Shown piece after piece: positions 28,866-53,817 of a DNA stretch of 64,000 nucleotides; positions within the stretch are counted from its first letter, which is position 1; the number at the start of each line of letters is the position of its first letter. The notes beneath the pieces are model-generated. The model searched no databases. It was not told where the DNA came from and saw nothing but the letters and a program-made list of their open reading frames with translations. This DNA comes from Hanleya hanleyi (lineage: Eukaryota; Mollusca; Polyplacophora; Lepidopleurida; Hanleyidae). The position numbers and the translations under genes were made by a program. The DNA is taken from assembly GCA_036873755.1 (NCBI GenBank), contig JAVTVY010036978.1, positions 94,555 through 158,554 of the forward strand, in the 5' to 3' direction.

Positions 28866-28869
28866 CATT

Positions 28870-29400: not shown

Positions 29401-29409
29401 CACTGAAAA

Positions 29410-30011: not shown

Positions 30012-30012
30012 G

Positions 30013-30187
30013 TTAGGTGGAGAAGTTACACAGCACGTTGCGCGCCTTGTCCACTTGAATGATGTTGTCAAACTCGGCGTAGCAGATCACATTGACGGTG
30101 CTCCGGAGGGCTCGTTGAAAGTGGATTTCCAACCGTAAATTGCCTTGCTTGGCCAGGGCCAGCTGATGGTCGTTCTCTAAGGTGGGG
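30013..30187 (-). pseudogene. Capsid-type protein, C-terminal fragment (Polinton)
   Basis: The minus-strand frame ends NLRLEIHFQRAL..TVNVICYAEFDNIIQ followed by a short tail and TAA at 30015-30013. GNLRLE.HF...L..TVNV..YAEFDN...ID..RNV is what I recall at the C-terminus of a Polinton virion protein annotated in many invertebrates as F54H12.2-like, probably the minor capsid (penton-type) protein. The stop is one base from the protease ATG. The 5' part is cut off exactly where B copy 2 begins (30188). Confidence 0.7.
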
Positions 30188-35741: not shown

Positions 35742-37910
35742 TATAGTTCAGACCAGCTGAAAGGTTAGTGTTGGCGCACCAACGGCGCGCAAACGAAGCG
35801 CGCCAACACAAAGGTATAGCGCGCCAATGCCCATGATTATCGGCTGGCCATTGTTCTAACTCTGTTGAATGTAGTCCGTCAACATGATTGAACACAGGCC
35901 GCGCGCTATCAGCACGGTCAGACAATGGCTGGAAGCGAGCTGCAGGAGTAAACGCCCGCTAGTGAGGTCTTTGTTAGCGAGCGATCGTTCACGCGAGGGA
36001 GCTCAAGAAAATCAGTTGGGAGTCCACGTGGCGTTAATCGGCACGAAGCTAACTGTTTGCACAGAATGTCTGCCTGTAATTTATACCTATTAAATAACAT
36101 CAGGTATATGAATTTGTGTTACCGGCGAACACGTGGACCTCGATCAAGCGTATTTGCATTCCATCTAAAAATTTGTAAAAGGAAATAGATTTAAGATTTA
36201 TTTTAATCATAAAACACTGCTTGCAAAATGGATTGTAATTTGTGTTTCGTCGGACACCTGCTTTCAAAGTTGACCCAGACTTGCGCGTCTCACGGAATAG
36301 CGTTTCTGGTATTAAAGAATGGGTATTTGTTTATTGGAAGTTTCATCTTACGGCCGCTTCGCATACAGATGCGCAAGTTCAAGTCATTCGTTTTTATATA
36401 TTCAAAAATTCTTGCAAATTGTGTTAATTTTGACCGTTCAAGAGTAAATGCCAGGGATTTTACTACCGGATTATGCAGTGTATAAATATTTAATCAGTGG
36501 GACAAGAACCGATGAAACGAATTATGTAATACCCGTACCTTTTTACTAGAAATCGGTTGATTGATTTGATTGAAGTGTGGTAATCCCTTTCTGAGGATTT
36601 GTCACCAATAAAACAGAACTCACTCCTCTGTGAAATAGATCAACCCTCATGAAATCTGGCGTCTACACACAACCCAGCTATCCAGACGAACTTTGGTACA
36701 AGTGCTGGATGCTGTCTGAACATGCTTAATATAGCCCCGCGCGACCAGTTTGACCCCACGTGGCATTCGCGGGAAAATGAGAACACGTGTTTGAAATCTT
36801 GCAACATATTACTGTGCAGAAGTTATATTTTACTGAACCGACAGTATGATTTGGCAGGAAGAAGACCGACTGATGGGAAAATCTTTCACTTTAAGTTATA
36901 ATCCATATTACTATGAAAACAGTACAGTCGACGGCAGTTCAATACGATTTCACTTGAGTACATGTACGTATATCCTCGCAGGTTATTCATGCACAAATAC
37001 TTGAATGTACACGTTTAAAGTCTGCGGCGTATTCGTTTTGATCAAATGATAGATGAAACGAATTAGTATGAGGAAAATCCGTCTGGGATTAATCTGTTAT
37101 TATTTTGTTGTTTTTTATTTCTAGCCCTGCCGTTGTAATGTTGATACATCCTGCTATAGTATAATAAATACTGGTCCTAGGGGGCCACACCTGCAATAAC
37201 ACTGGTGAAAACCCAGACTGCTACTTGCCCGTTTTGTTTTTCTAGTATTCATTGTTTAGTATCTGCGGGTGCAAGTTTCGGGTTATTTTAGGTCGAAAAT
37301 TCTTATTTCTGACCAGCGAAACCCTCATCAGGGAGACTATACGCATTGACCGTTAGACCTACATTTCATATGTGTTAATGTATACTTCCTGTCGAACAGT
37401 ATCACGGATGTTATATTGTCAGCAAGAAAACAACACTGTAAAGATTAATCATCTCGTTAAGTTTGGCGTAAACAAGTGGAGAATATAAACATAACAGTGC
37501 ATTCTCTCTCTGACGGGGTAAAGCGATATCTCGCTTTCGTCCAACAAAATGCGCGTCTGCGTCTCGTTTGAAAAGAAATTAAATGGCATTAACTTATTGT
37601 TTAGGTAGAAATCTCTGTTATTGTTTCGTTTTTGTTATTTAGCTGGAACGATGGATGTGTGGGCCATAAATACTTGTTAATTCTTATTTCCTCATCGGAA
37701 GTTATATATTATTTCGTGTGCAACCTTTAACAGTCGGGCGGTAACGAATAAAGAGCATATACAATTGGAGTATTTGTCATTCTCTGTAAGGGGCTAATTG
37801 ATCTTTTGAGTTTCTGTGTATATTTTGGTTAGGCGGTTGTAACAAGACAAGCCAAAGAGACAACTAGTCTGACCGAGCACTGCATGTTGCCCCGATTATG
37901 ATCTCGACTC

Positions 37911-37941
<31 letters not shown>

Positions 37942-38188
37942 ATTTAGAGTATTGGCGCTCCATTCGATTGAATGATTTGCGCCATGTCATTGATATTGCT
38001 TCAGTATAAAAGTAATCTGTATGAATAAAAAAAAAAAATATAAAAAATCTCAATGGATTTAACATGCAGAGGGAATATATAGATTAAAAGTGTTATGGCT
38101 CAGGGAAGGGCAGGCGATGTTAAATGTTTGGCAGGTTATTTTCATGAAGGGGAAGTAAAATATATAAAAAGCAATCAATATGTATGCC

Positions 38189-38440
38189 AGTGGTATATAT
38201 TACCCTGTTTGAGCCACATTTCACCCGGATGTAGAGGTCATTTGGGGAGGATTTGAGGAGGAGAGGTCAAGTGCACTATAGTTCCGGCAGAATGACCAAA
38301 AAGCTACCTCCAGCACAGGAGAGTTCCAATTGTTGCAGGGAATGTATTCCTCCGCGGTGATGCGGTCTGGCGGTGATGTGGTCGCGGGAAAAGGCTTCCG
38401 CGGAGAAAAAGTAGTCCCCGGACTTGAAATACGCTGCATG
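38189..38440 (+). repeat. Palindrome terminal segment T, left
   Basis: The outermost ~250 bp mirrors 49930-50176. Features are CCCTGTTTGAGCCACATTTCACCC, a polypurine GGGGAGGATTTGAGGAGGAGAGG, and a block (38281-38330) resembling 28904-28948 beside the protease gene. Confidence 0.7.
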
Positions 38441-39600
38441 GTCCGATTGGGTCGAGTGAGGTATCAAAGTGAAGCATTCATGAAGGGGCATCTAATGGGC
38501 TGGGTGTGCGGTTGAAATATCGGCATTCTGCGCATGCTCGGTGGCCAAAGTGTATGGAAATAGACGTTTTGGAGCTAGGGGAGCCCCTAATGGTCCAATG
38601 GGGTCGAGTGAGGTATCAAAGTGAAGCATTCGTGAAGGGGCATCTGATGGGCTGGGTGTGGGGTTGAAATATCGGCATTCGGCGCATGCGCGGTGGCCAA
38701 AGGGTATGAAATTAGACGTTTTGGAGCTAGGGGAGCCCCTAATGGTCCAATGGGGTCGAGTGAGGTATCAAAGTGAAGCATTCGTGAAGGGGCATCTGAT
38801 GGGCTGGGTGTGAGATTGAGATATCGGCATTCTGCGCATGCGCGGTGGCCAAAGGGTATGAAAATAGACGTTTTGAAGCTAGGGGAGCCACTAATGGTCC
38901 AATGGGGTCATATGAGGTATCAATGTGAAGCATTCGTGAAGGGGCATCTGACTGGACTAGCGGCTCGGGCGTTGTCACCATTCTGCGCATGCGCAGACAG
39001 GGAATTGTGGGAAAAGGGTATGGAAATAGACGTTTTGGGATGTAGGTGAGCCCCTAGTGGGTCGATGGAGACGTATGAGGTATCAATGTGAAGCCTATGT
39101 GAGCGGGCATCTAACTGGGCTAGTGGCTCGAGCGTTGTCACCATTCTACGCATGCGCAGACAGGGAATTGTGGAAAAGGGTGTGGAAATAGACGTTTTGG
39201 GATCGAGCGGGGTTTCTAATGGGGCGATGGAGTCGTATGAGGTATCAATGTAAAGCCTATGTGAGGGGGCATCTGACTGGACTAGTGGCTCGAGCGTTGT
39301 CACCATTCTACGCATGCGCAGACATGGAATTGTGGGAAAAGTGTATGGAAATAGAAGTTTTGGGATGTAGGTGAGCCACGAGTGGGCCGATTGGGTGAAG
39401 TGAGGTATCAAAGTGAAGCATTCGTGAAGGGGCATCTGATGGGCTGGGTGTGGGGTTGAAATATCGGCATTCTGCTCATGCGCGGTGGCCAAAGGGTATG
39501 GAAATAGACGTTTTGGGATCTAGGGGAGCCCCTAATGGGCCGATCGAGTTGTATGAGGTATCAATGTGAAGCCTATGTGAAGGGGCAACCAGTTATGGGT
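38440..39600 (+). repeat. Array A, left arm
   Basis: It holds about eight units of ~145-165 bp with GGTCGAGTGAGGTATCAAAGTGAAGC, GGGGCATCTGATGGGCTGG, TTCTGCGCATGCGCGGTGGCC and TATGGAAATAGACGTTTTGG. Inner units read TGCGCATGCGCAGACAGGGAATTGTGG. Nearly every unit has an NRF-1-type TGCGCATGCGC palindrome. Confidence 0.75.
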
Positions 39601-39639
39601 GGGTGCATGTAAAATTTTTCCTGAAAAAGAAAACGGAAC

Positions 39640-40560
39640 ACGGACTTTATCGAAAAATCCGGCAAAATGCCTATATGGGGTATGGGGGATATAGGACCAT
39701 CCTGGGAAACCTACTTCTCGACATTTGCGGTATAGGTTGTGGGGTCTCGTTTTCTTAGTCTCGTCAAGACAAACATGATAGGAAGTGTCGCGGAGCGAAT
39801 GGTTGAAATTTTTGGAAAAAGTTCAGGGAGACCTATATAGTCCCATACTGGGGGTATAGGACCAATGTTTGTCCCACTGGGAAACCTACTTCTAGATATT
39901 TGCGGTATGGTTGTTTGGATTTGTTCTCTTAGCCTCGTCAAGACAAACATGATAGGAAGTGTCCCGGCACGAAACGGTGAAATTTTTGAAAAAGTACCAT
40001 ATAGCTCCATATAGACCCATATAATCCCATACTGGGGGTATAGGACCAATGTTTGTCCCACTGGGAAACCTACTTCTATACATTTGCGGTATGGTTGTTT
40101 GGATTTGTTTTCTTAGTCTCGTCATTTAGAACACGATAGGAAGTGTCGCGGAGCGAATCGTTGAAATTTTTGGAAATAGTTCAGGGAGACCTATATAGTC
40201 CCATACTGGGGGTAAAGGACCAATGTTTGTCCCACTGGGAAACCTACTTCTGTACATTTGCGGTATGGTTGTTTGGATTTGTTTTCTTAGTCTCGTCATT
40301 TAGAACACGATAGGAAGTGTCCCGGAGCGAAACGGTGAAATTTTTGAAAAAAGTCACCGAGACCCATATAGACCCATATAGACCCATACTGGGGATATAG
40401 GACCAATGTTTGTCCCACTGGGAAACCTACTTCTATACATTTGCGGTATGGTTGTCTGAATTTGTTTTCTTAGTCTCGTCAAGACAAACATGATAGGAAG
40501 TGTCCCGGCACGAAACGGTGAAATTTTTGGAAAAAGTTCACCGAGGCCTGGGTAGGCCCA
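39640..40560 (+). repeat. Array B, left arm
   Basis: Five units of ~171-186 bp share CTGGGAAACCTACTTCT, ATTTGCGGTATGGTTGTTTGGATTTGTTTTCTTAG, CTCGTCAAGACAAACATGATAGGAAGTGTC and GTGAAATTTTTG. The right arm has six units, so copy number has drifted between the arms. Confidence 0.75.
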
Positions 40561-40599
40561 TAGGCCTATACTGCATGGCTATGGGAGTATAGGCCCATA

Positions 40600-41375
40600 C
40601 GGGGTGGACGTGTTGGAGTCTAGGTGAGTCCCTGGTGGTCCAATGGTGTCGTATGAGGTCTTATTTTGAAGCTCTCATGCAGGAGCACTTAACTACACTA
40701 ATGGTTAGGACGTTGTCAATACTCTGCGCATGCGCAGTCTGGCCGTAGTATAGAAAGCAGGCATTTTGGGGGGTATGTGGGTGTGTGTTTGGGGTAGAGA
40801 TGGACCGCTATGGATCCGAATGGGTCGTGGAAGGTGTCAAAGTGAAGCTTGTGTGGGTTAGAGTCAGAATGGTGTGTTTTTAAGTGCAAGTCGCGTTAAT
40901 CTGCGCATGCGCAGTTGTTTGTAGTAAGTAAAGTGGCCATTTTGGGGCAGTATATGAAGGTATTTGGGGTCGAGATGGGCTATTCACGGTTCGAATGCGT
41001 CCTGGAAGGTGTCATCTTGTAGCTCTCGGGGTGTTGACCTCGCTTTGAGGGCTGTCCACAGCATATGTGACGTCATCAGTAGGAGTAGTAGCGAAAGTGA
41101 GCATTTTGGGGCAGTGAAAGATGGTATTTGGTGTAGAGATGGACCATCCTTGGTCCGAATGCGTCATGGGAGGTGTCATGTTGTAGCTCTCGGGGTATAG
41201 ACCCCGATTTGAGGGATATCCACAGCATCTGTGACGTCATTGGTGACGTCATCAGTATGAGTAGTAGCGAAATGGGACATTTTTTAGCAGTGAAGGATGT
41301 TACTTGGTGTAGAGATGGACCATCCGCGGTGCGAATGCGTCGTGTGATGTGTCATCTTGTAGCAACGCCCACCAA
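40600..41375 (+). repeat. Array C, left arm
   Basis: Units of ~165-175 bp are anchored by GAGATGGACC...GGTCCGAATGCGTC..GGAGGTGTCA. The outer units hold TCTGCGCATGCGCAG (40731 and 40901 areas). The inner units hold GTGACGTCAT at the equivalent place (about 41067 and 41231-41252). The anchor is similar to array A's GGTCCAATGGGGTCGAGTGAGGTATCA, so A and C share an ancestor. Confidence 0.65.
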
Positions 41376-41789
41376 CGCCATTCTTAATGCTTCAAGGCCC
41401 TGGTGAAATAGATGAAAAGCTCTGATATTCCATGGAATTGTCACTAATTCTTCGAAATGCAGTGACCTCCGTCGACGCCCGTCGTTACACCTTAACACTC
41501 TAACATAACGCCATGATATAGACCGGAGTTTATTCTCCCCAATGTTACATCATATCCACGCTGGGGGAGCCGCGTTGGGTATATTTACAATTCAAGAAGA
41601 TTCTTGTCCAGTCAGAGGCCACCATTTGCATCTGTCATATTCGTTCCTGTCCGTTAGATGTATTCTCGGCTACTCTTGTCCAATCAGAAGTCGCCATTTC
41701 AGAAAGTTCCATCTTCGGCCATGTTTGCTCTGAACCGTTTGTTCTAATCGTCATCGGGCAGGCCAGGATACCGTTGAGGAAACATATCC
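41376..41789 (-). other. 3' flank of the left-arm genes, with polyadenylation signal
   Basis: On the minus strand, AATAAA lies in GGAGAATAAAC (41529-41539) and ends the outward transcription unit. Two copies of TCTGATTGGACAAGA (inverted CCAAT boxes) lie between it and the last reading frame. The right arm mirrors this at 46334-46640. Confidence 0.5.
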
Positions 41790-42145
41790 TCAGATAGTTG
41801 TTTGCGCATTCTGAGTATCTATCAGTGCATGGGTGAATACTTTCATCCGGTGGGGGTGGTGGATCAGCTTGGTAAGGAAAAACGTAACATTGGTCACCTT
41901 CTTCACTGTCCACTTGGTGTTGGGTCGTTGTTGTTGGGCCCATCCCAAGACATCCAATTGTTCCAGTTTCTCCAGCATCATCTCTAGTGACCTCCGGTTA
42001 ATGATGGTAAACGGTTGGTCGTACACTGGGTTGATGGCAGTGGAATAGAAATAGCGCAATTCACCCGTCATCTTATGGCATAAGATGTACCCAAATGCTA
42101 CATTTAATGTGAAGGCCGTATGTTGGTCATTGAAGATGGTTTCCA
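41790..42145 (-). CDS. Polinton polymerase N-terminal-like frame, left arm
   Basis: The frame is open from about 42180 and recognisable from FNDQHTAFTLNVAFGYIL, then ELRYFYSTAINPVYDQP, DVLGWAQQQRPNTKW and TNVTFFLTKLIHHPH. The pattern FGYIL...TGE.RYFY...N......P..I..R..LE.....L...DVL.W..QQRPNTKW....TNVTFF is one I recall upstream of DNA polymerase B in Polinton-type proteins of invertebrates and fish, where C2H2 fingers precede it. There is no ATG at a sensible place, and the frame overlaps the end of the zinc-finger ORF in another frame, so it is probably the displaced C-terminal part of that protein. None of the polymerase catalytic region follows. Confidence 0.55.
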
Positions 42146-42714
42146 CGTAGCTGCGTAGACGGGTGAGGTTGGTCAGTGGGAAAATTGTAGATATCTTGAA
42201 TAGGGCGATGACGGTGGAAACAGTGCCGTGTCATGGACCAATGGCGCCGAGAGATGTCACTCTCTGGATGATCTTCGGGTAAGAGATCGCTAGGAACATT
42301 TACGGTGGGGTCCGGCTGGAAATCCAGGCTCTTCCCAACTGTGGGTATAGGCAGGCTCTCCGTCATCGCATCACCAGTGGCGTTCGTCTTCCCGGGCTTA
42401 TCTTCACTGGGTCTGACCTTCCGCGGCTCCTCTTCAGTAGGAAGTTGTCGCCAAAACCGTAGAGACGGACCATGAATCAAACGCTCATGCCGTTTTAACT
42501 GACTGGGTCGTTTGAAGAGTTGACCACAATCCTTACATTGTTCCTTCGCGCCCTCGTGGAATGAGCGTTCGTGGCGCAGTAAATGATCCTCCCGATTAAA
42601 TGACCGTGCGCAGGTTATACAAGTATACCGTGCATCGTTGTGGGTGGAGGCCTCGTGGCGTCGTAAATTATCTAGACGAGTAAACTGCTTCTGGCAAGCT
42701 GTGCAAGTGAACAT
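42127..42714 (-). CDS. C2H2 zinc-finger gene 2, left arm
   Basis: The product is 195 residues with three classical fingers at the N-terminus: CTACQKQF...HEASTH, CITCARSF...HERSFH and CKDCGQLF...HERLIH, each CX2CX12HX4H. A Pro/Glu/Ser-rich linker follows, then RRHWSMTRHCFHRHR. It probably binds DNA or RNA. It is paralogous to gene 1 on the same arm. Compared with the right-arm copy it lacks 51 bp (17 codons, in frame) after DFQPDPT. A TATA box lies 45-53 bases upstream of the ATG. The end of the frame overlaps the polymerase-like frame, offset by +1. Confidence 0.7.
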   Translation of the reverse strand: MFTCTACQKQFTRLDNLRRHEASTHNDARYTCITCARSFNREDHLLRHERSFHEGAKEQCKDCGQLFKRPSQLKRHERLIHGPSLRFWRQLPTEEEPRKVRPSEDKPGKTNATGDAMTESLPIPTVGKSLDFQPDPTVNVPSDLLPEDHPESDISRRHWSMTRHCFHRHRPIQDIYNFPTDQPHPSTQLRGNHLQ

Positions 42715-42758
42715 CTTGGTGGTTGACAGAGTGTCTGATGAAACGGCAAGGCCGCTTC

Positions 42759-42767
42759 CCTTTTATA
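42759..42767 (-). promoter_or_regulatory. TATA box of gene 2, left arm
   Basis: TATAAAAGG on the minus strand, inside a block near-identical to the gene 1 promoter. The stop codon of gene 1 (TAA) lies inside this TATA box. Confidence 0.65.
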
Positions 42768-43362
42768 GCACGCTAGCTGGTGATCTATTTTTAGCACGTA
42801 TAGGGCAGTGTCGGATCATGGACAAATGGCGTCGATACATCTCACTCACTGGATGATCTTCGGGTAAGAGGTCGCTGGGAACATCCACCGCATCTTCCAG
42901 AAAATGTTCGTTGTTGTCAGGCGTATGACTGGAAACAGTAATGCTAGGGACCGGCTGGATATCTAGGCTCTTCTGAGCTGTGGGTATAGGCGGGCTCTCC
43001 GTGATCGCATCACCAGTGGCATTCTCCTCCCCGGGTTCATCTTCAGTGGATCTGTCCCTCCTGGGTGCCTCTTTAGTGGAAAGTTGTCCCTCATGCCGTG
43101 GTGACGGACCATGAATCAAACGCTCATGCCGTTTTAACTGACTGGGTCGTCTGAAGAGTTGACCACATTCTTCGCATGGACGCTTGGGTGGCCCATGAAT
43201 TGAACGTTCATGGCGCTGTAAATGATCTGGGCGCTGAAACGACAGTGTAGGCCTACATATCGTACAGCTATACCGGGCGGTTCCATCGTGCTTGGTAGCC
43301 TCATGGCGGCGCAAGTCGTGCCGGCGAGTGAATGATTTCGAGCACGTAGTACAAGTGAACAT
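42763..43362 (-). CDS. C2H2 zinc-finger gene 1, left arm (intact)
   Basis: The product is 199 residues. Finger 1 is CTTCSKSF...HEATKH (CX2CX12HX4H). Finger 2 is CTICRPTLSF...HERSIH with two extra residues (CX2CX14HX4H). Finger 3 is CEECGQLF...HERLIH. An acidic/Ser/Pro linker and SEMYRRHLSMIRHCP follow. The gene starts 45 bases downstream of a TATA box, and its stop lies in the TATA box of gene 2, a very compact virus-like arrangement. The likely role is nucleic-acid binding, perhaps regulation or replication; that is inference. The right-arm copy is frameshifted, so this is the better allele. Confidence 0.7.
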   Translation of the reverse strand: MFTCTTCSKSFTRRHDLRRHEATKHDGTARYSCTICRPTLSFQRPDHLQRHERSIHGPPKRPCEECGQLFRRPSQLKRHERLIHGPSPRHEGQLSTKEAPRRDRSTEDEPGEENATGDAITESPPIPTAQKSLDIQPVPSITVSSHTPDNNEHFLEDAVDVPSDLLPEDHPVSEMYRRHLSMIRHCPIRAKNRSPASVL

Positions 43363-43388
43363 CTTGGTGGTTGACAGAGTGTCTGATG

Positions 43389-43415
43389 AAACGGCCAGGC
43401 CGTTTCCTTTTTATA
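43389..43415 (-). promoter_or_regulatory. Promoter of gene 1, left arm: TATA plus 17-bp palindrome
   Basis: TATAAAAAG (43407-43415) is followed by AAACGGCC-A-GGCCGTTT (43389-43405), a perfect inverted repeat between TATA and ATG, where transcription would start. It mirrors 44682-44708. Confidence 0.65.
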
Positions 43416-43444
43416 GCAAGCTAGCTGTTGATCTATTTTTAGCA

Positions 43445-43645
43445 CAATCAGTTCAACTTGGACGTCAGCGACAAGAACCCGGATGTAGGCGCGGAAGTCA
43501 GCGACAAGAACCCGGATGTAGACGCGGACGTCAAACAGGTGCATGCTCCTGTGGTGCACCGTGTACCCTAGGATGTTCACGAATGTTCCACCATCCCCGA
43601 CTTCTACCAGGCCCAGGTCCAGAAGCTCTCATGTCCTGCATGTGA
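43445..43645. repeat. Short direct repeats between promoter and centre, left arm
   Basis: GTCAGCGACAAGAACCCGGATGTAG(G/A)CGCGG occurs twice (about 43464-43527). The rest is single-copy, mirrored at 44452-44640, and contains a GGGCCTGG-type block. Confidence 0.5.
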
Positions 43646-43651
43646 ATAGTC

Positions 43652-44440
43652 ATATTGTGTGTGTATGCATGTGTGTATGCGTCTGTGTGTGTGTGTGCGT
43701 GTGTGTGTGTGTGTGTGTATGCGTGTAGGAGCGTGTGGGTTTGTGTGTGTGTGCATGCTTGCGTGTATGCATGTGTGTGTTTATGTGTGTGTGTGTGCAG
43801 CGTGTATATGTGTATGCGCCTGTGTATATGCGTGTGTGTCTGGGTGTATGTGTGTGTGTGTGTGCGTGTGTGTGTCTGTGTATGCATGTGTGCATGCGTC
43901 TGTGTGTGCGTGTGTGTGTGTATGCGTGTGTATATGAGTGCGTGTGTATGCGTGCGTGCGTGTATGCAAGTGTGTGTATGCGCCTGTGTATGCGTGTATG
44001 CAAATGTGTGTTTGCGTCTGTGTGTGTGTGTGTGTGTGTGTGTAGGCGGTTGTGTGTGTGTGCGTGTGCGTGCATGTGCGTGTGTATGCGTGTGTATGTA
44101 TGCCTCTGTGTGTGTATGTGTGTGCTTGCGAGTGTGTTTCTTGGATCGGAGCTTTTGGAGCATATACACACGCATACACACACACACACACACACAAACG
44201 CATGCACACATGCATACACAGACACACACACGCACACACACATACACCCAGACACACACGCATACACACAGGCGCATACACACACATACACGCTGCACAC
44301 ACACACGCACATACACACACACATGCATACACGCAAGCATACACACACACACAAGCCCACACGCACATACACGCATACACACACACACACCCACACACAC
44401 ACGCACACACACAGACGCATACACACATGCATACACACAC
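43652..44440. repeat. Palindrome centre: TG tract, spacer, CA tract
   Basis: A TG-rich tract with TATGCG variants (43652-44139) faces a CA-rich tract (44162-44440), with a non-repetitive spacer TTCTTGGATCGGAGCTTTTGGAG (about 44138-44160). The outer parts of the two tracts mirror each other unit by unit. About 200 bp of the left tract has no partner. The very long Cys/Val- and His/Thr-rich open frames here are repeat artefacts. Confidence 0.8.
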
Positions 44441-44681
44441 AATATGACTATTCACATGCAGGACATGAGAGCTTCTGGACCTGGGCCTGGTAGAAGTCGG
44501 GGATGGTGGAACATTCGTGAACATTCTAGGGTACACGGTACACCACAGGAGCATGCACCTATTTGACGTCCGCGTCTACATCCGGATTCTTGTCGCTGAC
44601 GTCCGCGCCTACATCCGCGTTCTTGTCGCTGACGTCCAAGTTGAACTGATTGTGCTAAAAATAGATCAACAGCTAGCTTGC

Positions 44682-44708
44682 TATAAAAAGGAAACGGCCT
44701 GGCCGTTT
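44682..44708 (+). promoter_or_regulatory. Promoter of gene 1, right arm: TATA plus 17-bp palindrome
   Basis: TATAAAAAG at 44682-44690, then AAACGGCC-T-GGCCGTTT at 44692-44708, 26 bases before the ATG. The ~75 bp from CTAAAAATAGATCA to the ATG is nearly the same in front of gene 2. Confidence 0.65.
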
Positions 44709-44734
44709 CATCAGACACTCTGTCAACCACCAAG

Positions 44735-45244
44735 ATGTTCACTTGTACTACGTGCTCGAAATCATTCACTCGCCGGCACGACTTGCGCCGCCATGAGGCT
44801 ACCAAGCACGATGGAACCGTCCGGTATAGCTGTACGATATGTAGGCCTACACTGTCGTTTCAGCGCCCAGATCATTTACAGCGCCATGAACGTTCAATTC
44901 ATGGGCCACCCAAGCGTCCATGCGAAGAATGTCGTCAACTCTTCAAACGACCCAGTCAGTTAAAACGGCTTGAGCGTTTGATTCATGGTCCGTCACCACG
45001 GCATGAGGGACAACTTTCCACTAAAGAGGCACCCAGGAGGGACAGATCCACTGAAGATGAACCCGGGGAGGAGAATGCCACTGGTGATGCGATCACGGAG
45101 AGCCCGCCTATACCCACAGCTCAGAAGAGCCTAGATATCCAGCCGGTCCCTAGCATTACTGTTTCCAGTCATACGCCTGACAACATTTTCTGGAAGATGC
45201 GGTGGATGTTCCCAGCGACCTCTTACCCGAAGATCATCCAGTGA
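44735..45244 (+). pseudogene. C2H2 zinc-finger gene 1, right arm (frameshifted)
   Basis: It is the mirror of 42763-43362. Relative to that copy, 7 bp are missing after the codons for HTPDN near 45181, which shifts the frame and ends the product early at 45244 (169 residues instead of 199). Finger 3 has also lost its first zinc-binding His (KRLERLIH against KRHERLIH) and a Gly (CEECRQ). The N-terminal fingers are intact. This arm's copy is therefore probably non-functional while the left copy survives. Confidence 0.75.
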
Positions 45245-45337
45245 GTGAGATGTATCGACGCCATTGGTCCATGATCCGACACTGCTTCCACCGTCATCGC
45301 CCTATATGTGCTAAAAATAGATCAGCAGCTAGCGTGC

Positions 45338-45346
45338 TATAAAAGG
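45338..45346 (+). promoter_or_regulatory. TATA box of gene 2, right arm
   Basis: TATAAAAGG, 53 bases before the ATG, within a duplicate of the gene 1 promoter (CTAAAAATAGATCAGCAGCTAGCGTGC). The palindrome after it is degenerate here (AAGCGGCCTTGCCGTTT). Confidence 0.65.
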
Positions 45347-45390
45347 GAAGCGGCCTTGCCGTTTCATCAGACACTCTGCCAACCACCAAG

Positions 45391-46029
45391 ATGTTCACTT
45401 GCACAACTTGCCAGAAGCAGTTTACTCGTCTAGATAATTTACGACGCCACGAGGCCTCCATCCACAACGATGCACGGTATACTTGTATAACCTGCGCACG
45501 GTCATTTAATCGGGAGGATCATTTACTGCGCCACGAACGCTCATTCCACGAGGGCGCGACGGAACAATGTAAGGATTGTGGTCAACTCTTCAAACGACCC
45601 AGTCATTTAAAACGGCATGAGCGTTTGATTCATGGTCCGTCTCTACGGTTTTGGCGACAACTTCCTACTGAAGAGGAGCCGCGGAAGGTCAGACCCAGTG
45701 AAGATAAGCCCGGGAAGACGAACGCCACTGGTGATGCGATGACGGAGAGCCTGCCTATACCCACAGTTGGGAAGAGCCTGGATTTCCAGCCGGACCCCAC
45801 CATTACGGTTTCGAGTCATACGTCATACATCGAACATTTTCTGGACGAGCCCATAAATGTTCCTAGCGATCTCTTACCCGAAGATCATCCAGAGAGTGAC
45901 ATCTCTCGGCGCCATTGGTCCATGACACGGCACTGTTTCCACCGTCATCGCCCTATTCAAGATATCTACAATTTTCCCACTGACCAACCTCACCCGTCTA
46001 CGCAGCTACGTGGAAACCATCTTCAATGA
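45391..46029 (+). CDS. C2H2 zinc-finger gene 2, right arm (intact)
   Basis: The product is 212 residues. It has three CX2CX12HX4H fingers (CTTCQKQF...HEASIH, CITCARSF...HERSFH, CKDCGQLF...HERLIH). The linker includes FQPDPTITVSSHTSYIEHF, absent from the left-arm copy, and RRHWSMTRHCFHRHRPIQD follows. It shares layout and promoter with gene 1 and arose by tandem duplication before the palindrome formed. The frame ends inside the start of the polymerase-like frame; the shift point is near the T4C3 run at 45972-45978 and is the same in both arms. Confidence 0.7.
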   Translation: MFTCTTCQKQFTRLDNLRRHEASIHNDARYTCITCARSFNREDHLLRHERSFHEGATEQCKDCGQLFKRPSHLKRHERLIHGPSLRFWRQLPTEEEPRKVRPSEDKPGKTNATGDAMTESLPIPTVGKSLDFQPDPTITVSSHTSYIEHFLDEPINVPSDLLPEDHPESDISRRHWSMTRHCFHRHRPIQDIYNFPTDQPHPSTQLRGNHLQ

Positions 46030-46333
46030 CCAACCTACGGCCTTCACATTAAATGTAGCATTTGGGTACATCTTATGCCATAAGATGACGGGTGAATTGC
46101 GCTATTTCTATTCCAGTGCCATCAACCCAGTGTACGACCAACCGTTTACCATCATTAACCGGAGGTCACTAGAGATGATGCTGGAGAAACTGGAACAATT
46201 GGATGTCTTGGGATGGGCCCAACAACAACGACCCAACACCAAGTGGACAGTGAAGAAGGTGACCAATGTTACGTTTTTCCTTACCAAGCTGATCCACCAC
46301 CCCCATCGGATAAAGTATTCACCCATGCACTGA
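45975..46333 (+). CDS. Polinton polymerase N-terminal-like frame, right arm
   Basis: The content is the same as 41790-42145 (FTLNVAFGYIL, ELRYFYSSAINPVYDQP, DVLGWAQQQRPNTKW, TNVTFFLTKL). It is in the +1 frame relative to gene 2 and likely the rest of that protein, split by a one-base change or joined by frameshifting. It ends 11 codons earlier than the left copy because of a local frame change after HHPHR. No polymerase catalytic motifs follow. Confidence 0.55.
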
Positions 46334-46640
46334 TAGATACTCAGAATGCGCAAACAACTATCTGAGGATATGTTTCCTCAACGGTATCCTGGCCTGGCCG
46401 ATGACGATTAGAACAAACGGTTCAGAGCGAACATGGCCGAAGATGGAACTTTCTGAAATGGCGACTTCTGATTGGACAAGAGTAGCCGAGAATACATCTA
46501 ACGGACAGGAACGAATATGACAGATGCAAATGGTGGCCTCTGATTGGACAAGAACCTTCTTGAATTGTAAATATACCCAACGCGGCTCCCCCAGCGTTGG
46601 TATGATGTAACATTGGGGAGAATAAACAATATGAAAAAAA
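46334..46640 (+). other. 3' flank of the right-arm genes, with polyadenylation signal
   Basis: Two TCTGATTGGACAAGA repeats (46467 and 46541 areas) are followed by GGAGAATAAAC (AATAAA near 46621), the presumed transcript end. Confidence 0.5.
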
Positions 46641-46715
46641 ATTCTTGTTGTTGTTGTTCTCTCATGTGTCATCCTTGTTGTTGTTGCTGTTGTTGTTCTC
46701 TCTCCGGTCTATATC
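46641..46715 (+). repeat. TTG microsatellite unique to the right arm
   Basis: TTGTTGTTG tracts with CTCTCATGTGTCATCC between them follow directly after the AATAAA signal. The left arm goes from TTTATTCTCC straight to the next block, so this arose or was lost after the palindrome formed. Confidence 0.65.
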
Positions 46716-46869
46716 ATGGCGTTATGTTAGAGTGTTAAGGTGTAACGACGGGCGTCGACGGGCGTCACTGCATTTCGAAGAATTAGTGACAATTCCATGG
46801 AATATCAGAGCTTTTGAGCTATTTCACCAGGGCCTTGAAGCATTAAGAATGGCGTTGGTGGGCGTTGCT

Positions 46870-47600
46870 ACAAGATGACACCTCACACGACGCATTCGCA
46901 CCGCGGATGGTCCATCTCTACACCAAGTAACATCCTTCACTGCTAAAAAAATGCCCCATTTCGCTACTACTCATACTGATGACGTCACCAATGACGTCAC
47001 AGATGCTGTGGATATCCCTCAAATCGGGGTCTATACCCCAAGAGCTACAACATGACACCTCCCATGACGCATTCGGACCAAGGATGGTCCATCTCTACAC
47101 CAAATACCATCCTTCACTGCCCCAAAATGCTCATTTTCGCTACTACTCCTACTGATGACGTCACCAATGACGTCACAGATGCTGTGGACAGCCCTCAAAT
47201 CGAGGTCTACACCCCGAGAGCTACAAGATGACACCTTCCAGGACGCATTCGAACCGTGAATAGCCCATCTCGACCCAAATACCTTCATGCACTGCCCCAA
47301 AATGGCCACTTTACTTACTACAACCAACTGCGCATGCGCAGATTAACGCGACTTGCACTTAAAACACACCATTCTGACTCTAACCCACACAAGCTTCACT
47401 TTGACACCTTCCACGACCCATTCGGATCCATAGCGGTCCATCTCTACCCCAAACAAACACCCACATACCCCCAAAATGCCTGCTTTCTATACTACGGCCA
47501 GACTGCGCATGCGCAGAGTATTGACAACGTACGAACCATTAGTGTAGTCAAGTGCTACTGCATGAGAGCTTCAAAATAAGACCTCATACGACACCATTGG
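46870..47600 (-). repeat. Array C, right arm
   Basis: Mirror of 40600-41375. TGACGTCA sites lie in the inner units and TGCGCATGCGCAG in the outer two. Confidence 0.65.
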
Positions 47601-47639
47601 ACCACCAGGGATTCACCTAGACTCCAACACGTCCACCCC

Positions 47640-48745
47640 GTATGGGCCTATACTCCCATAGCCATGCAGTATAGGCCTATGGGCCTACCCAGGCCTCAGT
47701 GAACTTTTTCCAAAAATTTCACCGTTTCGTGCTGGGACACTTCCTATCATGTTTGTCTTGACGAGACTAAGAAAACAAATCCAAACAACCATACCGCAAA
47801 TGTATAGAAGTAGGTTTCCCAGTGGGACAAACATTGGTCCTATACCCCCAGTATGGGTCTATATGGGTCTATATGGGTCTCGGTGACTTTTTTCAAAAAT
47901 TTCACCGTTCCGCTCCGGGACACTTCCTATCGTGTTCTAAATGACGAGACTAAGAAAACAAATCCAAACAACCATACCGCAAATGTATAGAAGTAGGTTT
48001 CCCAGTGGGACAAACATTGGTCCTATACCCCCAGTATGGGACTATATGGGTCTATATGGGGCTATATGGTACTTTTTCAAAAATTTCACCGTTTCGTGCC
48101 GGGACACTTCCTATCATGTTTGTCTTGACGAGACTAAGAAAACAAATCCAAACAACCACACCGCAAATGTCTAGAAGTAGGTTTCCCAGTGGGTCAAACA
48201 TTGGTCCTATATCCCCAGTATGGGTCTATATGGGTCTCGGTGACTTTTTTCAAAAATTTCACCGTTTCGCTCCGGGACACTTCCTATCGTGTTCTTAATG
48301 ACGAGACTAAGAAAACAAATCCAAACAACCATACCGCAAATGTATAGAAGTAGGTCTCCCAGTGGGACAAACATTGGTCCTATACCCCCAGTATGGGATT
48401 ATATGGGTCTCTATGGAGCTCTATGGTACTTTTTCAAAAATTTCACCGTTTCGTGCCGGGACACTTCCTATCATGTTTGTCTTGACGAGGCTAAGAGAAC
48501 AAATCCAAACAACCATACCGCAAATATCTAGAAGTAGGTTTCCCAGTGGGACAAACATTGGTCCTATACCCCCAGTATGGGACTATATAGGTCTCCCTGA
48601 ACTTTTTCCAAAAATTTCAACCATTCGCTCCGCGACACTTCCTTACATGTTTGTCTTGACGAGACTAAGAAAACGAGACCCCACAACCTATACCGCAAAT
48701 GTCGAGAAGTAGGTTTCCCAGGATGGTCCTATACCCCCCATACCC
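47640..48745 (-). repeat. Array B, right arm
   Basis: Mirror of 39640-40560 with six units; GAAGTAGGT(T/C)TCCCAG starts near 47809, 47992, 48174, 48347, 48531 and 48707. Confidence 0.75.
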
Positions 48746-48959
48746 CATATAGGCATTTTCCGTAATTTAGGATAAAGTCCGTGTTCCGTATTTTTTCAGG
48801 AAAAGTTTTACATACACCCACCCTGGAACTAGGGGGAGATAACTCTATTGATAGGCAAGCCCCGTTAAGCCCGGCGACCTATATACCCCCCATACCCCAT
48901 ATAGGCATTTTCCCGGATTTTTCGATAAAGTCCGTGTTCCGTTTTTTTATGCCCCTTTG
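48746..48959 (-). other. Spacer between arrays B and A, right arm
   Basis: It carries two copies of CCCCATATAGGCATTTTCC (48743 and 48895 areas), against one in the left arm. The extra ~150 bp looks like a local duplication. Confidence 0.5.
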
Positions 48960-49930
48960 CATAGGCTTCACATTGATACCTCATACAACTCGATCGGCCC
49001 ATTAGGGGCTCCCCTAGATCCCAAAACGTCTATTTCCATACCCTTTGGCCACCGCGCATGCGCAGAATGCCGATATTTCAACCCCACATCCAGCCCATCA
49101 GATGCCCCTTCATGAATGCTTCACTTTGATACCTCACTCCACCCAATCGGCCCACTCGTGGCTCACCTACATCCCAAAACGTCTATTTCCATACACTTTT
49201 CTCACAATTCCCTGTCTGCGCATGCGTAGAATGGTGACAACGCTCGAGCCACTAGTCCAGTCAGATGCCTCCTCACATAGGCTTCACATTGATACCTCAT
49301 ACAACTCCATTGGACCATTAGGGACTCTCCTAGCTCCAAAACGTCTATTTTCATACCCTTTGGCGACCTCGCATGCGCAGAATTGTGATATTTGAACCCC
49401 ACACCTAGGCCATCAGATGCCCCTTCACGAATGCTTCACTTTGATACCTCACTCGACCCCACTGGACCATTAGGGGCTCACCTACATCCCAAAACGTCTA
49501 TTTTCATACCCTTTGGCCACCGTGCATGCGCAGAATGCCGATATCTCAATCTCACACCCAGCCCATCAGATGCCCCTTCACGAATGGTTCACTTTGATAC
49601 CTCACTCGACCCCATTGGACCATTAGTGGCTCCCCTAGCTCCAAAACGTCTACTTTCATACCCTTTGGCTACCGCGCATGCGCAGAATGCCGATATTTCA
49701 ACCCCACACCCAGCCCATCAGATGCCCCTTCACGAATGCTTCACATTGATACCTCATACGACTCCATCGGCCCATTAGGGACTCCCCTAGCTCCAACACG
49801 TCTATTTCCATACCCTTTGGCCACCGCGCACGCGCAGAATGCCGATATTTCAACCCCACACCCAGCCCATTAGATGTCCCTTCACGAATGCTTCACTTTG
49901 ATACCTCACTCGACCCAATCGGACCATGCA
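48960..49930 (-). repeat. Array A, right arm
   Basis: Mirror of 38440-39600, with about six or seven units carrying GCGCATGCGCAGAATG. Confidence 0.75.
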
Positions 49931-50176
49931 GCGTATTTCAAGTCCGGGGACTACTTTTTCTCCGCGGAAGATTTTTCCCGCGACCGCATCATCGCCAGAC
50001 GGCATCACCGCGGAGGAATACATTCCCTGCAACAATTGGAACTCTCCTGTGTTGGAGGTAGCTTTTTGGTCATTCTACCGGAACTATAGTGCACTTGACC
50101 TCTCCTCCTCAAATCCTCCCCAAATGACCTCTACATCTGGGTGAAATGTGGCTCAAACAGGGTAATATATACTACT
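49931..50176 (-). repeat. Palindrome terminal segment T, right
   Basis: Mirror of 38189-38440, ending GGGTAATATATACTACT before the TATGCC duplication. Confidence 0.75.
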
Positions 50177-50383
50177 TATGCCATACAAAACAAAAATTAT
50201 TACATAATCAACACATGCATACACATGCAAAAGTAGGTTGAAAGCAGCATACAAGTAAAAAAGAATAAATATAAGTATAGGCCATGCAAAAAATAGTAAT
50301 GCTTCACAGATATCACAGCAAAATCACAGATAAATCAAATTAAAAGGAAAAAGTTAAAATTTACAATACATGGTCAGTATAAA

Positions 50384-52288
50384 TTAAAAACGCTTACATC
50401 GGATGATAAAATCCGCAACAGCCTGGAAAACCTTACCGTGATTTCTAGAAGGCTTAAAAACATTCTCCATGGTTGGATTAAAAACACCTGCATGAATAAG
50501 ATCAGTATAAAACAAATGACGTTGATTAACATGTCTGAGACAATGGAATAAAAAATGATCTACTGAATCATCCACCAAGCAGTCGTCGCATAAACCAGTT
50601 TCATGTAAATTAAAACGAGCAAGGTAAGAGTTAATAGGAATATGCCCAGATTGAACTCTATAAAATAGTTTCTCAGCTAGTCGGGACGATAAGTTAAAAT
50701 CATGGGCTAAAATAACATCTGAGTTAAAATCATGATAAAAGCGACCTTCAGTAGATGAATCCCAGTCTTCCTGCCACATGCGAATGAATTGGGGTTTGAG
50801 CCAACTTAAAATCTCGGACATGTTCATTAAAACTGAGATGGAAATACCAGGGAGTAAAAGGGCTTGCTTGGCTAATCGGTCAGCTGACTCATTCCCCAAC
50901 AGACCCACATGGGCAGGAAGCCATTCAAAACATATATGTATTCCCTGGAAAGATAAAACAGTGCAGATATGTAATATTTCATATAAAATAGGAGTAGATT
51001 TCGTCCAAGTAAAATTAATAAGTGCTTGTAAGGAACTCAACGAGTCTGATAAAATCACAGCTCTAGCTGGTCTAAAATCAGACAAAAACCGCAATGACAT
51101 TAAGATAGCTGTGAGCTCAGCTGTAAACACAGATACATTATCAGTTAATCTAAAACACTTACTATATTTGATTTCGGGCACACAGAAAGCTGCCCCGACA
51201 TGATCAGAATCTTTTGACACGTCTGTAAAGACCTGTAAATATTGAGACCAATTATTATCGATATGTTTCCTAGCACAAGACTGAATAATATACTGGGGGT
51301 CAGATTTTTTAACTTTATTATGAATATCTAACGATATGAATGGTAATTTTAAATGCCAAGGAGGAAGTGCTGGAACAGAGGACTGTTGAATAATTAAAGC
51401 AGGAATATTAAGCATGGAACAAATAGATTTGGAACGAATACTAAATGGTTCTGGTCGAGAAGAATTGTCAACATAAAATCTATCATATGGAGTAGGGGTA
51501 AAAACAGATAAGGCAGATTGGTTTCTTGAGGACTTTAACTTCAACGTAAATTTAAGAGTGCGCATGCGTCGCCGAATATACAGAGGCCACTCATTGCACA
51601 TAACTTGTAAAACATTTAAAGGAGTGGTTCTGAGAGCCCCTGACACTGAACAGTCTAGTTTTGATTTCAGTGTCGCGCATGCGCTATCGTAAGCCTCACA
51701 ACAATAATCTAATCTAGAACGAATTAATGCACGATATAATAATAATAATGTTTTCTTATCTGCACCCCATGATCTTCCAGACACACAACGCATAAGGTTT
51801 AGCACTTTCTTACATTTAATAGTTAGGACATTACTATGGTCTTTCCATGTTAGACGTTTGTCCAATATAGCACCCAAATATTTAAAAGAGTTTGAAAGTT
51901 TTACAGTAGAACCATCCAACACAAGATTAAGCGGGTTCTGTAAATGCCTTTTTGTAAATAATACAGCTTCAGTTTTCACAGATGAAAACTTAAAACCCCA
52001 CAGATGACCCCATTTAACAATATCATTAATACCCTGTTGAATATATTTCTTTGCATGATTAATACTTTTACAGGCAAACCATATGGCTTTGTCATCTGCA
52101 AATAGAGAACATTTAAGTTTGGGATTTAGGGCAGATGGAAGGTCATTAATAGTGATATTAAATAATGTAGGCGATAAGACCGAGCCGTGAGGCACAATGT
52201 TCTCAACAAGAACGCGCCGAGATAAATCTCGACCAACTCGAACTTGAATAAAACGGTCCGATAATTTTTTTTTAACCCAGCCTAACAT
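50384..52288 (-). CDS. Non-LTR ORF2, RT C-terminal half and RNase H
   Basis: From MLGWVKKKLSDRFIQVRVG the frame contains VPHGSVLSPTLFN (usually VPQG), the catalytic LFADDKAIW box, and a thumb region (FKYLGAILDKRLTWKDH). An RNase H domain follows at roughly residues 355-480, with VFTDVSKD, FTAELTAI, LSDSLSSLQAL and WLPAHVGLLGNESADRLAKQA, so the D, E, D, D catalytic set is in place. A CDDCLVDDSVDHFLFHC Cys/His motif closes the protein. The presence of RNase H and the terminal hairpin point to the I superclade. It is separated from the first half of RT by a frameshift at a 7-G run (minus strand), 52290-52296. Confidence 0.85.
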   Translation of the reverse strand: MLGWVKKKLSDRFIQVRVGRDLSRRVLVENIVPHGSVLSPTLFNITINDLPSALNPKLKCSLFADDKAIWFACKSINHAKKYIQQGINDIVKWGHLWGFKFSSVKTEAVLFTKRHLQNPLNLVLDGSTVKLSNSFKYLGAILDKRLTWKDHSNVLTIKCKKVLNLMRCVSGRSWGADKKTLLLLYRALIRSRLDYCCEAYDSACATLKSKLDCSVSGALRTTPLNVLQVMCNEWPLYIRRRMRTLKFTLKLKSSRNQSALSVFTPTPYDRFYVDNSSRPEPFSIRSKSICSMLNIPALIIQQSSVPALPPWHLKLPFISLDIHNKVKKSDPQYIIQSCARKHIDNNWSQYLQVFTDVSKDSDHVGAAFCVPEIKYSKCFRLTDNVSVFTAELTAILMSLRFLSDFRPARAVILSDSLSSLQALINFTWTKSTPILYEILHICTVLSFQGIHICFEWLPAHVGLLGNESADRLAKQALLLPGISISVLMNMSEILSWLKPQFIRMWQEDWDSSTEGRFYHDFNSDVILAHDFNLSSRLAEKLFYRVQSGHIPINSYLARFNLHETGLCDDCLVDDSVDHFLFHCLRHVNQRHLFYTDLIHAGVFNPTMENVFKPSRNHGKVFQAVADFIIRCKRF

Positions 52289-53817
52289 TCCCCCCCAATC
52301 CCAAGGTTGTTCATTTTAATAAAAAGGCCATGCCTCCATACAATATCATAAGCACGTTGAATATCTAAAAACACTGATAAAAAATATTCTTTGTTAAGCA
52401 GAGATTTCCTTATAGAATCCTCTAAAGTGATAACATGGTCAACAGTGGAACGATTTCTACGAAATCCTGACTGAACAGGGGAAAGTATATTATTTTTATC
52501 AAGAAACCACGTCAGATGAACATTAATCATTTTTTCCATGATCTTACACAGGTTAGATGTTAAGGCTATTGGTCTATATGACGTAGGAAGAGAGGGATCC
52601 TTTCCAGGTTTAGCCACCGCTATAACAACAGCTCTCTTCCACGATATAGGTAAACACATTTTAGACCATATAGTATTATAAAATAGAAGTAACACATTGA
52701 GAGCTTTTTCAGGCATATTTTTAATCATTGAGTATGAAATATTGTCCTCTCCTGGCGATGAATCATGGGTACTATGAAGAGCCTGTTTCAGTTCAGTAAG
52801 TGTAAAATCTTCATTTATAGGCATATCATCAAATAAAATATTGTTAAAAGTGTGGGTCTGTTCCATTTCCTGCTTATGGGGTAAAAAATCTGAACTATAA
52901 TTGTCCGTACTAGACACAAACGCAAAATTATCAACTAGAACATTACACTTGTCAGCATTTGTAACATTACAACCTGTATCAGATATAATAGTAGGAATGG
53001 AATTAGACTTTCGGACACCATTAGTAGCCTTAACCTGGGACCATACTTGTTTTAGATTAGTTTTACTGTTCATTTTAGAACAGTAATCTCGCCAACTTAG
53101 TTTCCGTGCATTTTTAGTTGTGCGTTGTGCAAAAGCTTTTTTCTTTTTAAAATCAATAATGTCCGGTAATAATCGGGTGTGTTTAGCCCTGTTCTTTGTC
53201 CTGTTCCGTTCCCTAATAGCTTTGGAACAGTCAGAGTTCCACCATGGAACAGGGGGCTTGGTACTAGGTATACCCTTGGACATAGGTATAGATTTCTCGG
53301 CTGCGTCGTTTATGGCACTTACAATATTGTCAGAATACACATCTATATCATCATTAAAAAAATCACCAGAAAGACAATGATCACACTCCTTAGTGTAACT
53401 TACCCAATCAGCTTTGCTTGTTTTCCACCTAGGCGGACTGCCTAGGTGATTGGTATGCGGGGTAAAACCAAGGGTAAAATGTACTGGGTAATGATCACTC
53501 CCACAGGAAGTAGAATAGTCGATATGCCATGTAAAAGAAGAAGAAATATCATGTGAACATAAAGTAAGGTCAAGGGGAGACAACTTGCCAGTACGAATAT
53601 CTAATCGTGTACCAGACCCATCATTAAGTAAAACTAGAGTATTGTCTTGTATAAAAAAATCACATATAATGTTTCCATTATGATCAGCCTTAGCACTACC
53701 CCACAGCTCATGGTCAGCGTTCATATCACCACAAATAATATAAGATTCACCAATAAGAGAGACAAGCATATTAAAATCAGAAAGATCTAGACGATTACAA
53801 GGGTTATATAAATTCAC
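52282..53817 (-). CDS. Non-LTR ORF2, endonuclease C-terminus and RT N-terminal half
   Basis: ICGDMNADHELWG and CGSDHYPV are the last two signature blocks of an APE-type endonuclease. RT then begins: AVAKPGKDPSLPTSYRPIAL, SGFRRNRSTVDH, FLDIQRAYDIVW. The frame stops at GIGGEC just after the 7-G run; the next frame resumes immediately. A homopolymer slip in the element or a sequencing error would both explain this. Confidence 0.85.
   Translation of the reverse strand: MNLYNPCNRLDLSDFNMLVSLIGESYIICGDMNADHELWGSAKADHNGNIICDFFIQDNTLVLLNDGSGTRLDIRTGKLSPLDLTLCSHDISSSFTWHIDYSTSCGSDHYPVHFTLGFTPHTNHLGSPPRWKTSKADWVSYTKECDHCLSGDFFNDDIDVYSDNIVSAINDAAEKSIPMSKGIPSTKPPVPWWNSDCSKAIRERNRTKNRAKHTRLLPDIIDFKKKKAFAQRTTKNARKLSWRDYCSKMNSKTNLKQVWSQVKATNGVRKSNSIPTIISDTGCNVTNADKCNVLVDNFAFVSSTDNYSSDFLPHKQEMEQTHTFNNILFDDMPINEDFTLTELKQALHSTHDSSPGEDNISYSMIKNMPEKALNVLLLFYNTIWSKMCLPISWKRAVVIAVAKPGKDPSLPTSYRPIALTSNLCKIMEKMINVHLTWFLDKNNILSPVQSGFRRNRSTVDHVITLEDSIRKSLLNKEYFLSVFLDIQRAYDIVWRHGLFIKMNNLGIGGEC

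Follow-up and report, generated by a model that had tools for sequence, protein, structure and literature searches.

The window analysed here is a stretch of 64,000 nucleotides from the mollusc Hanleya hanleyi (assembly GCA_036873755.1, contig JAVTVY010036978.1, positions 94,555 to 158,554). It harbours at 38189..50176 an element of 11,988 bp which consists almost entirely of two inverted arms. It belongs to a palindromic family present in several copies, and its terminal inverted repeats (TIRs) are shared by palindromes of other size or with another centre. The multicopy status corrects the preliminary description of the window, which had dealt with this one palindrome. The element is probably best explained as a non-autonomous Polinton derivative which arose by fold-back, was mobilised in trans and was homogenised through hairpin or panhandle intermediates.

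Architecture of the palindrome and its copies in the genome

For the global alignment of the arms, the pivot was placed at position 44150. The termini of the element are AGTGGTATATATTACCC from 38189 and, inverted, AGTAGTATATATTACCC at 50176. The outermost inverted block (38189-38875 with 49490-50176, 96%) starts at the very ends, and the innermost one (42912-43753 with 44344-45185, 97%) reaches the centre. Over 5,565 aligned pairs the arms were 96.41% identical, with 200 mismatches and 23 indel runs. Counted per 500 alignment columns, identity ranged over 88.1-96.6% for the outer 2.5 kb and over 97.6-99.4% inwards of it, and the last, central bin stood at 90.4%. The right end carries (AGT)2 as AGTAGT, the left end as AGTGGT with one substitution. 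A large share of each arm is made of tandem repeats with units of 152 bp, ~174 bp and ~164-176 bp, and (TG)n/(CA)n tracts lie at the centre. The inverted arms, the termini and the TATGCC flanks of the preliminary description were all confirmed, with arms of 5,962 and 6,026 nt. Its proposal of a head-to-head structure inserted as a unit also held; a single TATGCC target-site duplication (TSD) bounds both arms. No Rfam family was detected in the window at gathering thresholds, and no PHROG match was obtained for five open reading frames (ORFs) of the element.

An assembly fold is ruled out by the divergence of the arms, by the TSD and by the same architecture on other contigs. Given 200 mismatches, the right arm is not a mirrored copy of a single assembled arm. 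The division of the assembly into 52,793 contigs speaks for a collapsed or folded contig, but the arms differ by indel runs as well, and the flanks are dissimilar yet share the TSD, so that such an artefact is extremely unlikely. The outward-facing arm pairs on other contigs further exclude, at the level of the sequence, the artefact which the preliminary description had considered. Two separate head-to-head insertions are ruled out too, since one TSD encloses the whole and the architecture recurs.

The genome (2.48 Gb on the contigs mentioned above; C-numbers designate contigs, L-numbers loci or stretches) was searched with the first 250 bp of the element. This search, suggested in the preliminary description, yielded further copies with 6-bp TSDs as well as loci with Polinton genes between the same ends. 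Among 3,966 first-look candidates the best 40 were scored, and copy counts are therefore lower bounds. From the best matches, 20 stretches on 14 contigs were taken, a sample biased to similar TIRs. A 575-bp piece of the arm gave 2,556 candidates, of which the best 40 fall on 29 contigs. Within these best 40, more than one arm match was found on 10 contigs, the window's own included, and a single match on 19. In all ten multi-match contigs the arms are ordered minus-then-plus, facing outward as in the window; on C11288 the order is minus, plus, plus.

The inner parts of both arms were read at five more loci (C17934, C20557, C40979, C19322 and C14688). Three of the single-match contigs were examined: C40979 has both arms, C35697 has a diverged inverted partner and C21094 has no partner within 6.2 kb. 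The outer tips of C40979, C19322 and C14688 lie outside the stretches read; at C14688, a 1.8-kb outer piece was 96% identical between the arms. The left tip of C20557 is missing. The same TIR also occurs in further palindromes or near-palindromes: L020/21, with a length of 11.3 kb; L025, truncated where its contig ends; L010, which is 4 kb long and has an exact TSD; and L027.

Several copies are more complex. On C17934 the palindrome is followed by a third, again inverted arm (L030:3668-6348) with its own dyad core at L030:5272, as if fold-back had occurred twice in series. On C11294 (L017-L018), the left end together with its flank forms a tandem array of four, all having the same sequence as flank (cores at L017:583, L017:6265, L017:9577 and L018:2978). 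The right end of L027 near 9100 shows, by eye, a degenerate tip that differs in its block and lacks a TSD like that of the left end; it was excluded from the counts.

Relationship to Polintons

In the excerpts of two sources, Polintons/Mavericks are described as units of 15-20 kb with TIRs of 0.05-1.4 kb (PMC4028283, PMC8097293), and vertebrate Mavericks as having 6-bp TSDs, (AG)3 or (AGT)2 ends and TIRs of 46-1,447 bp (PMC8097293). The window element resembles them by its 6-bp TSD (TATGCC on both sides), by its TIRs and by inverted tips which start with AG and correspond to the (AGT)2 motif named in the excerpt of PMC8097293. It differs by its size of 12 kb, by consisting nearly entirely of inverted arms of 6 kb instead of carrying short TIRs, and by a zinc-finger and PolN-domain gene in each arm. 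This gene is the only one found in the unit, within which no RVE integrase, pPolB catalytic part, ATPase, cysteine protease or capsid gene was found.

Exact 6-bp TSDs were obtained for seven of the ten two-ended loci (the window element, L009, L010, L011/12, L013/14, L015/16 and L017/19). At L020/21 five of the six bases match, and no match was seen at L022 and L026. Five linear loci display the same TIR together with matched 6-bp TSDs. As judged by homology between copies, MCP and PRO-like genes are present in all five, integrase and ATPase-like genes in four. L009 contains capsid-type genes and PRO without integrase or ATPase; L011/12 has integrase and ATPase too. The order in L013/14 is TIR, zinc-finger/PolN gene (reversed), three small ORFs, integrase, ATPase, ORFx, minor capsid candidate, MCP, PRO and TIR, and the same gene order was found in L015/16 and L017-19.

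The integrase of L012 matched the Pfam families rve and Chromo, both over the cut-off. The ATPase-like call is weaker, with AAA_16, Pox_A32 and Adeno_IVa2 each below the Pfam cut-off. MCP itself has no Pfam match and no relative among viral contigs. It has 1,090 relatives, some of which are named F54H12.2-like, a label that we take to be carried by Polinton capsid proteins. The top-scoring named relative comes from the snail Littorina saxatilis, and one of four scanned relatives matched a double-jelly-roll model. The names PRO and minor capsid are presumptive assignments from gene order and from sequence inspected by eye; against the PDB set, PRO gave a non-significant match to a viral cysteine protease (E 0.22).

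The link to the Polinton family made in the preliminary description is thus borne out by the 6-bp TSD, the (AGT)2 ends and the same TIRs around loci of the same genome which encode integrase-chromodomain, ATPase-like, protease-like and capsid proteins. Since the unit itself lacks the Polinton core genes and the linear loci with the same ends have them, it was filed as a non-autonomous derivative rather than as a Polinton proper. The terminal (AGT)n direct repeats fit protein-primed replication with a terminal protein, which would then be the mode of replication of the family.

Tip blocks, arm gene and surroundings

A block of 23 bp directly follows (AGT)2. For the eight elements whose TSD matches at all six or at five of six bases, its identity was 0.978 within elements and 0.544 between them (112 between-element comparisons, maximum 0.83). 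At TIR positions 41-230, the corresponding values were 0.986 and 0.970. The observed sum is attained by the true pairing alone among the 40,320 possible pairings of left and right ends. The blocks of L022 and L026 differ between the ends (0.78 and 0.54); these loci have no matching TSDs and were left out of the means. At C17934 and C20557 the inner arms are 97-99% identical to those of the window, but the one readable tip of each carries a different block. The tips seem to change faster than the arms, yet the two tips of an element change together. We know of no description of tip blocks which are matched within but not between elements, and neither such blocks nor a palindromic Polinton is named in the titles and abstract openings given by a literature search.

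Tip-like AGTAGTAG motifs were also observed inside the 164-176-bp arm minisatellite (L050:1632-1984, L051:83-435, window positions 41078 and 41260, and the mirror positions). These motifs could possibly be internal start sites or tip donors.

Changes common to both arms were looked at in a tree of 1.2 kb, built from 15 arm rows of eight loci and two outgroup rows. The tree is mostly unresolved; C40979 and C14688 group together (94/98) and C20557 stands apart. On the branch of C40979 and C14688, six derived sites are common to the four arms; each of the four combinations of one arm per locus has none. Private sites present in both arms numbered ten in C20557, three in C19322, two in C40979 and zero in C17934, C14688 and the window. 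In C19322, a stop codon is found in the PolN domain of both arms.

Two zinc-finger modules are present in each arm of the window element. Open copies of the arm gene were found in L025 (357 aa) and L013 (424 aa), with C2H2 fingers followed by a domain of ~130 residues. A protein search gave, within its length limits, only one relative, which by eye extends beyond the end of the arm gene. In the same genome this relative was found back at at least 150 places, the longest frames reaching 1,487 aa. Identity between the arm domain and the N-terminal part of three long-frame copies was 66-67%, and a fragment 82% identical to the family MCP adjoins one such copy. The C-terminal part of the long frames contains what we take, by eye in two copies, to be polymerase motifs, and it aligned with two PF03175-positive polymerases over a block of 147 columns (hhalign 96.8%, E 2e-10). 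As neither Pfam nor NCBIfam gave a match for this part, the name pPolB-like rests on the eye-read motifs and this single block. Comparison of the N-terminus of the arm gene with the pPolB group found through PF03175 gave no match, either by blastp or by profile; the link to polymerases came via P0123 and via a second pPolB-like group with its long frames. Among viral contigs, the arm gene had no relative. The arm gene is read as zinc fingers fused to a putative pPolB-type N-terminal domain, without the catalytic part.

The ratio of non-synonymous to synonymous substitution rates (dN/dS) was 0.19-0.47 between the stand-alone subtypes of the arm gene (132 codons), and 0.09-0.21 between the arm domain and the long frames, with dS saturated in the latter case. 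Excluded from this analysis were rows whose domain contains stop codons (one of L025, both of L043, one of L022) as well as partial rows, among them the window's own. These values show constraint on the arm gene between subtypes, but not for the window copy, where both outer genes are broken. To judge from its sequence, the window copy is secondarily degraded, with its centre deleted and both outer gene copies frame-broken. The preliminary description had stated that all virion and replication genes were lost. This stands for the virion, integrase and polymerase catalytic genes, none of which was found in the unit, but not for the gene with zinc fingers and the pPolB-type N-terminal domain, which was kept and is constrained between subtypes.

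The pPolB-like gene is very abundant in the genome (32,594 first-look candidates, many with long open frames), and a second, PF03175-positive pPolB group is common as well (164 matches). This abundance suggests a large Polinton activity in the genome.

The features of the window are listed in Table 1. ORFs with EN, RT and RNase H of a retrotransposon without long terminal repeats (non-LTR) lie beyond the right flank. They are consistent with, though not proof of, the insertion site proposed in the preliminary description, the 3' untranslated region of a host retrotransposon. No copy of the empty site (the joined flanks without the element) was found in the sequence examined. The left flank (window 36689-38188) shares ~550 bp, inverted and 93.5% identical, with window 62216-62752. 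A second fragment of the same Polinton family occupies window 27994-30189.

Table 1. Features of the palindromic element and its surroundings in the window
Feature	Position	Strand	Basis
152-bp-type minisatellite, second Polinton fragment	27994-28845		
PRO-like ORF, second Polinton fragment	29403-30086	minus	
C-terminal end of MCP gene, second Polinton fragment	30016-30189	minus	
Left TSD, TATGCC	38183..38188	.	sequence read directly
Left arm, 5,962 nt	38189..44150	+	inverted-block and global alignment
Left tip, AGTGGT and 23-bp variable block; conserved TIR core starts at 38218	38189..38217	+	
152-bp minisatellite, left arm	38438..39587	+	tandem-repeat finding
~174-bp minisatellite, left arm	39702..40540	+	tandem-repeat finding
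Outer C2H2-zinc-finger and PolN-domain gene, left arm; frame-broken, 51-nt deletion relative to right arm	41754..42762	-	
Inner zinc-finger module (second subtype), left arm	42763..43410	-	
(TG)n-rich tract, left of centre	43656..44137	+	
Centre: left half-motif only, then right (CA)n tract; dyad of C17934/C19322/C20557 absent	44134..44165	+	
Right arm, 6,026 nt, inverted copy of left arm	44151..50176	-	inverted-block and global alignment
(CA)n-rich tract, right of centre	44166..44441	+	
Inner zinc-finger module, right arm	44687..45306	+	
Outer zinc-finger and PolN gene, right arm; frame-broken, 1-nt insertion common to left arm	45343..46401	+	
~173-184-bp minisatellite, right arm	47695..48721	-	tandem-repeat finding
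152-bp minisatellite zone, right arm	48965..49927	-	tandem-repeat finding
Right tip, AGTAGT and same 23-bp block	50148..50176	-	
Right TSD, TATGCC	50177..50182	.	sequence read directly
Non-LTR retrotransposon ORFs (EN, RT, RNase H) adjoining insertion	50384..53817	-	ORF analysis

Origin and propagation of the palindromes

The fold-back origin, the mobilisation in trans and the hairpin or panhandle repair as homogeniser are steps that we infer. In a Polinton undergoing protein-primed, strand-displacement replication, synthesis would fold back at a small internal hairpin and copy the strand just made. The product would be a head-to-head molecule, bounded on either side by the same Polinton end and without the virion, integrase and polymerase catalytic genes. 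Polinton integrase and presumably polymerase, provided in trans, would replicate the palindrome and insert it whole, producing 6-bp TSDs; multiplication would occur as an already palindromic family. As the single strand of a palindrome is self-complementary, each cycle is proposed to pass through a hairpin; in ordinary Polintons, the TIRs of the displaced strand would pair as a panhandle and be repaired to match. Mismatch repair in these hairpins and panhandles would make the tips, and less strictly the arms, alike before integration, after which the arms would drift and the centre would often be lost. Fold-back at an internal hairpin would explain why the element is head-to-head, why all that lay beyond the fold is gone and why a dyad marks the centre; the panhandle or hairpin intermediates would account for the matched tips and two-arm changes.

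A dyad core, CCACCGCGGTGG, is central in three of the five related palindromes: C17934 (L029, and again L030), C20557 (L032) and C19322 (L043). It has no spacer and is perfect over 28 bp in L029, L030 and C20557 and over 20 bp in C19322. At C20557, 90% symmetry extends over 200 nt on each side. The predicted DNA fold of the C19322 centre reached -123.7 kcal/mol compared with -47.4 ± 4.1 in 100 shuffles (z -18.6). The window centre is read as having lost the dyad by a central deletion. C40979 and C14688 share another centre and L025 has a further one, parts of which are present in linear loci (e.g. L014, L015 and L017/18). The fold-back idea is backed by the dyad centres of related copies and by the partial synchronisation of the arms and the clear one of the tips.

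A number of observations weigh against this explanation. Summed over six palindromes, 15 private sites are found in two arms and 50 in one arm only. The window arms share no private substitution, with five on the left only and three on the right only, and they are 98.95% identical to each other compared with 99.12 and 99.25% to C21094. A 1-nt insertion which is present in both window arms and absent from the 13 other arm rows and the two outgroup rows speaks for a two-arm change, but as it alters only the length of a short run of T, it may have originated twice. Of the 64 sites at which arms differ, six recur in two elements. Around the dyads of C19322 and C17934, symmetry over 200 nt on each side falls to 53-57%, as if these centres had been eroded on one side. 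Loci L009-L019 contained no match to the window-type half-centre, and no single-arm linear precursor with this centre was found among them. Read together, these data indicate that some changes reached both arms along transposing lineages, and that much one-arm drift followed insertion.

The same family also shows graded TIR lengths (0.43 kb in L009, 1.35 kb in L026, ~2 kb in L010 and ~3.5 kb in L027), a further point against a single fold-back. They would suit a progressive growth of the TIRs, in which end-to-end gene conversion of the Foldback or Galileo kind spread inward until the arms met. The richness of the arms in tandem repeats, the tips matched within elements and some of the two-arm changes agree with such growth as well. 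However, 90% symmetry around a spacer-less dyad in C20557 is not expected from inward spread, and in the linear loci L013/14, L015/16 and L017-19 the zinc-finger/PolN module is confined to the vicinity of one end; we therefore regard progressive growth as unlikely. A chromosomal inverted duplication, by host breakage or fork fold-back, could instead have joined two Polinton ends into a composite which the integrase later mobilised via its outer ends. Large palindromes can form from short inverted repeats in host DNA, and multi-fold copies such as C17934 with its third inverted arm would be explained in this way. This origin appears still less probable, as the sharing of TIRs by several palindrome types (the window type, L020, L025, L010 and L027) argues for an element-linked process, and no host DNA was recognised between the arms, although no systematic search for it was made.

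Among known systems, Foldback and Galileo elements have relatives with a P-superfamily or FB-type transposase and TSDs of 7-9 bp. The window element has Polinton-type tips and a 6-bp TSD instead, and its relatives encode a retroviral-type integrase (rve and chromodomain), not a P-type transposase. It is alike in its long inverted arms made partly of tandem repeats; the TIRs of Galileo are likewise long and internally repetitive in the abstract of PMC3573991. The fold-back derivative favoured here can also be compared with certain adenovirus genomes, in which a protein-primed replicon has one end duplicated head-to-head and copying between the ends can proceed through a panhandle. Adenoviruses are known for snap-back defective genomes and symmetric palindromic recombinants; literature searches gave no paper on these and listed three on AAV. 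The adenovirus forms are products of passage, whereas the window palindrome is integrated and multicopy in a genome.

It is conceivable, if rather doubtful, that the palindromes are self-complementary Polinton satellites with a cycle of their own. The displaced strand would collapse into a hairpin of half the unit's length, which is open at a protein-primed Polinton end and closed at the other; copying around the closed tip would restore the unit. Mismatch repair in this hairpin and in ordinary TIR panhandles would rewrite one side from the other and give two matching hypervariable tips. The protein with zinc fingers and PolN domain may attach to the arm repeats and either bring in the helper Polinton's polymerase or compete with it.

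Self-copying of Polintons has so far been deduced mainly from gene content. A palindromic family with dyad centres and element-specific matched tips would provide a genomic record of fold-back and panhandle intermediates which could be read in other genomes. The palindromes point to Polinton satellites, comparable to the defective genomes of adenoviruses, which would multiply in the genome and keep a constrained gene.

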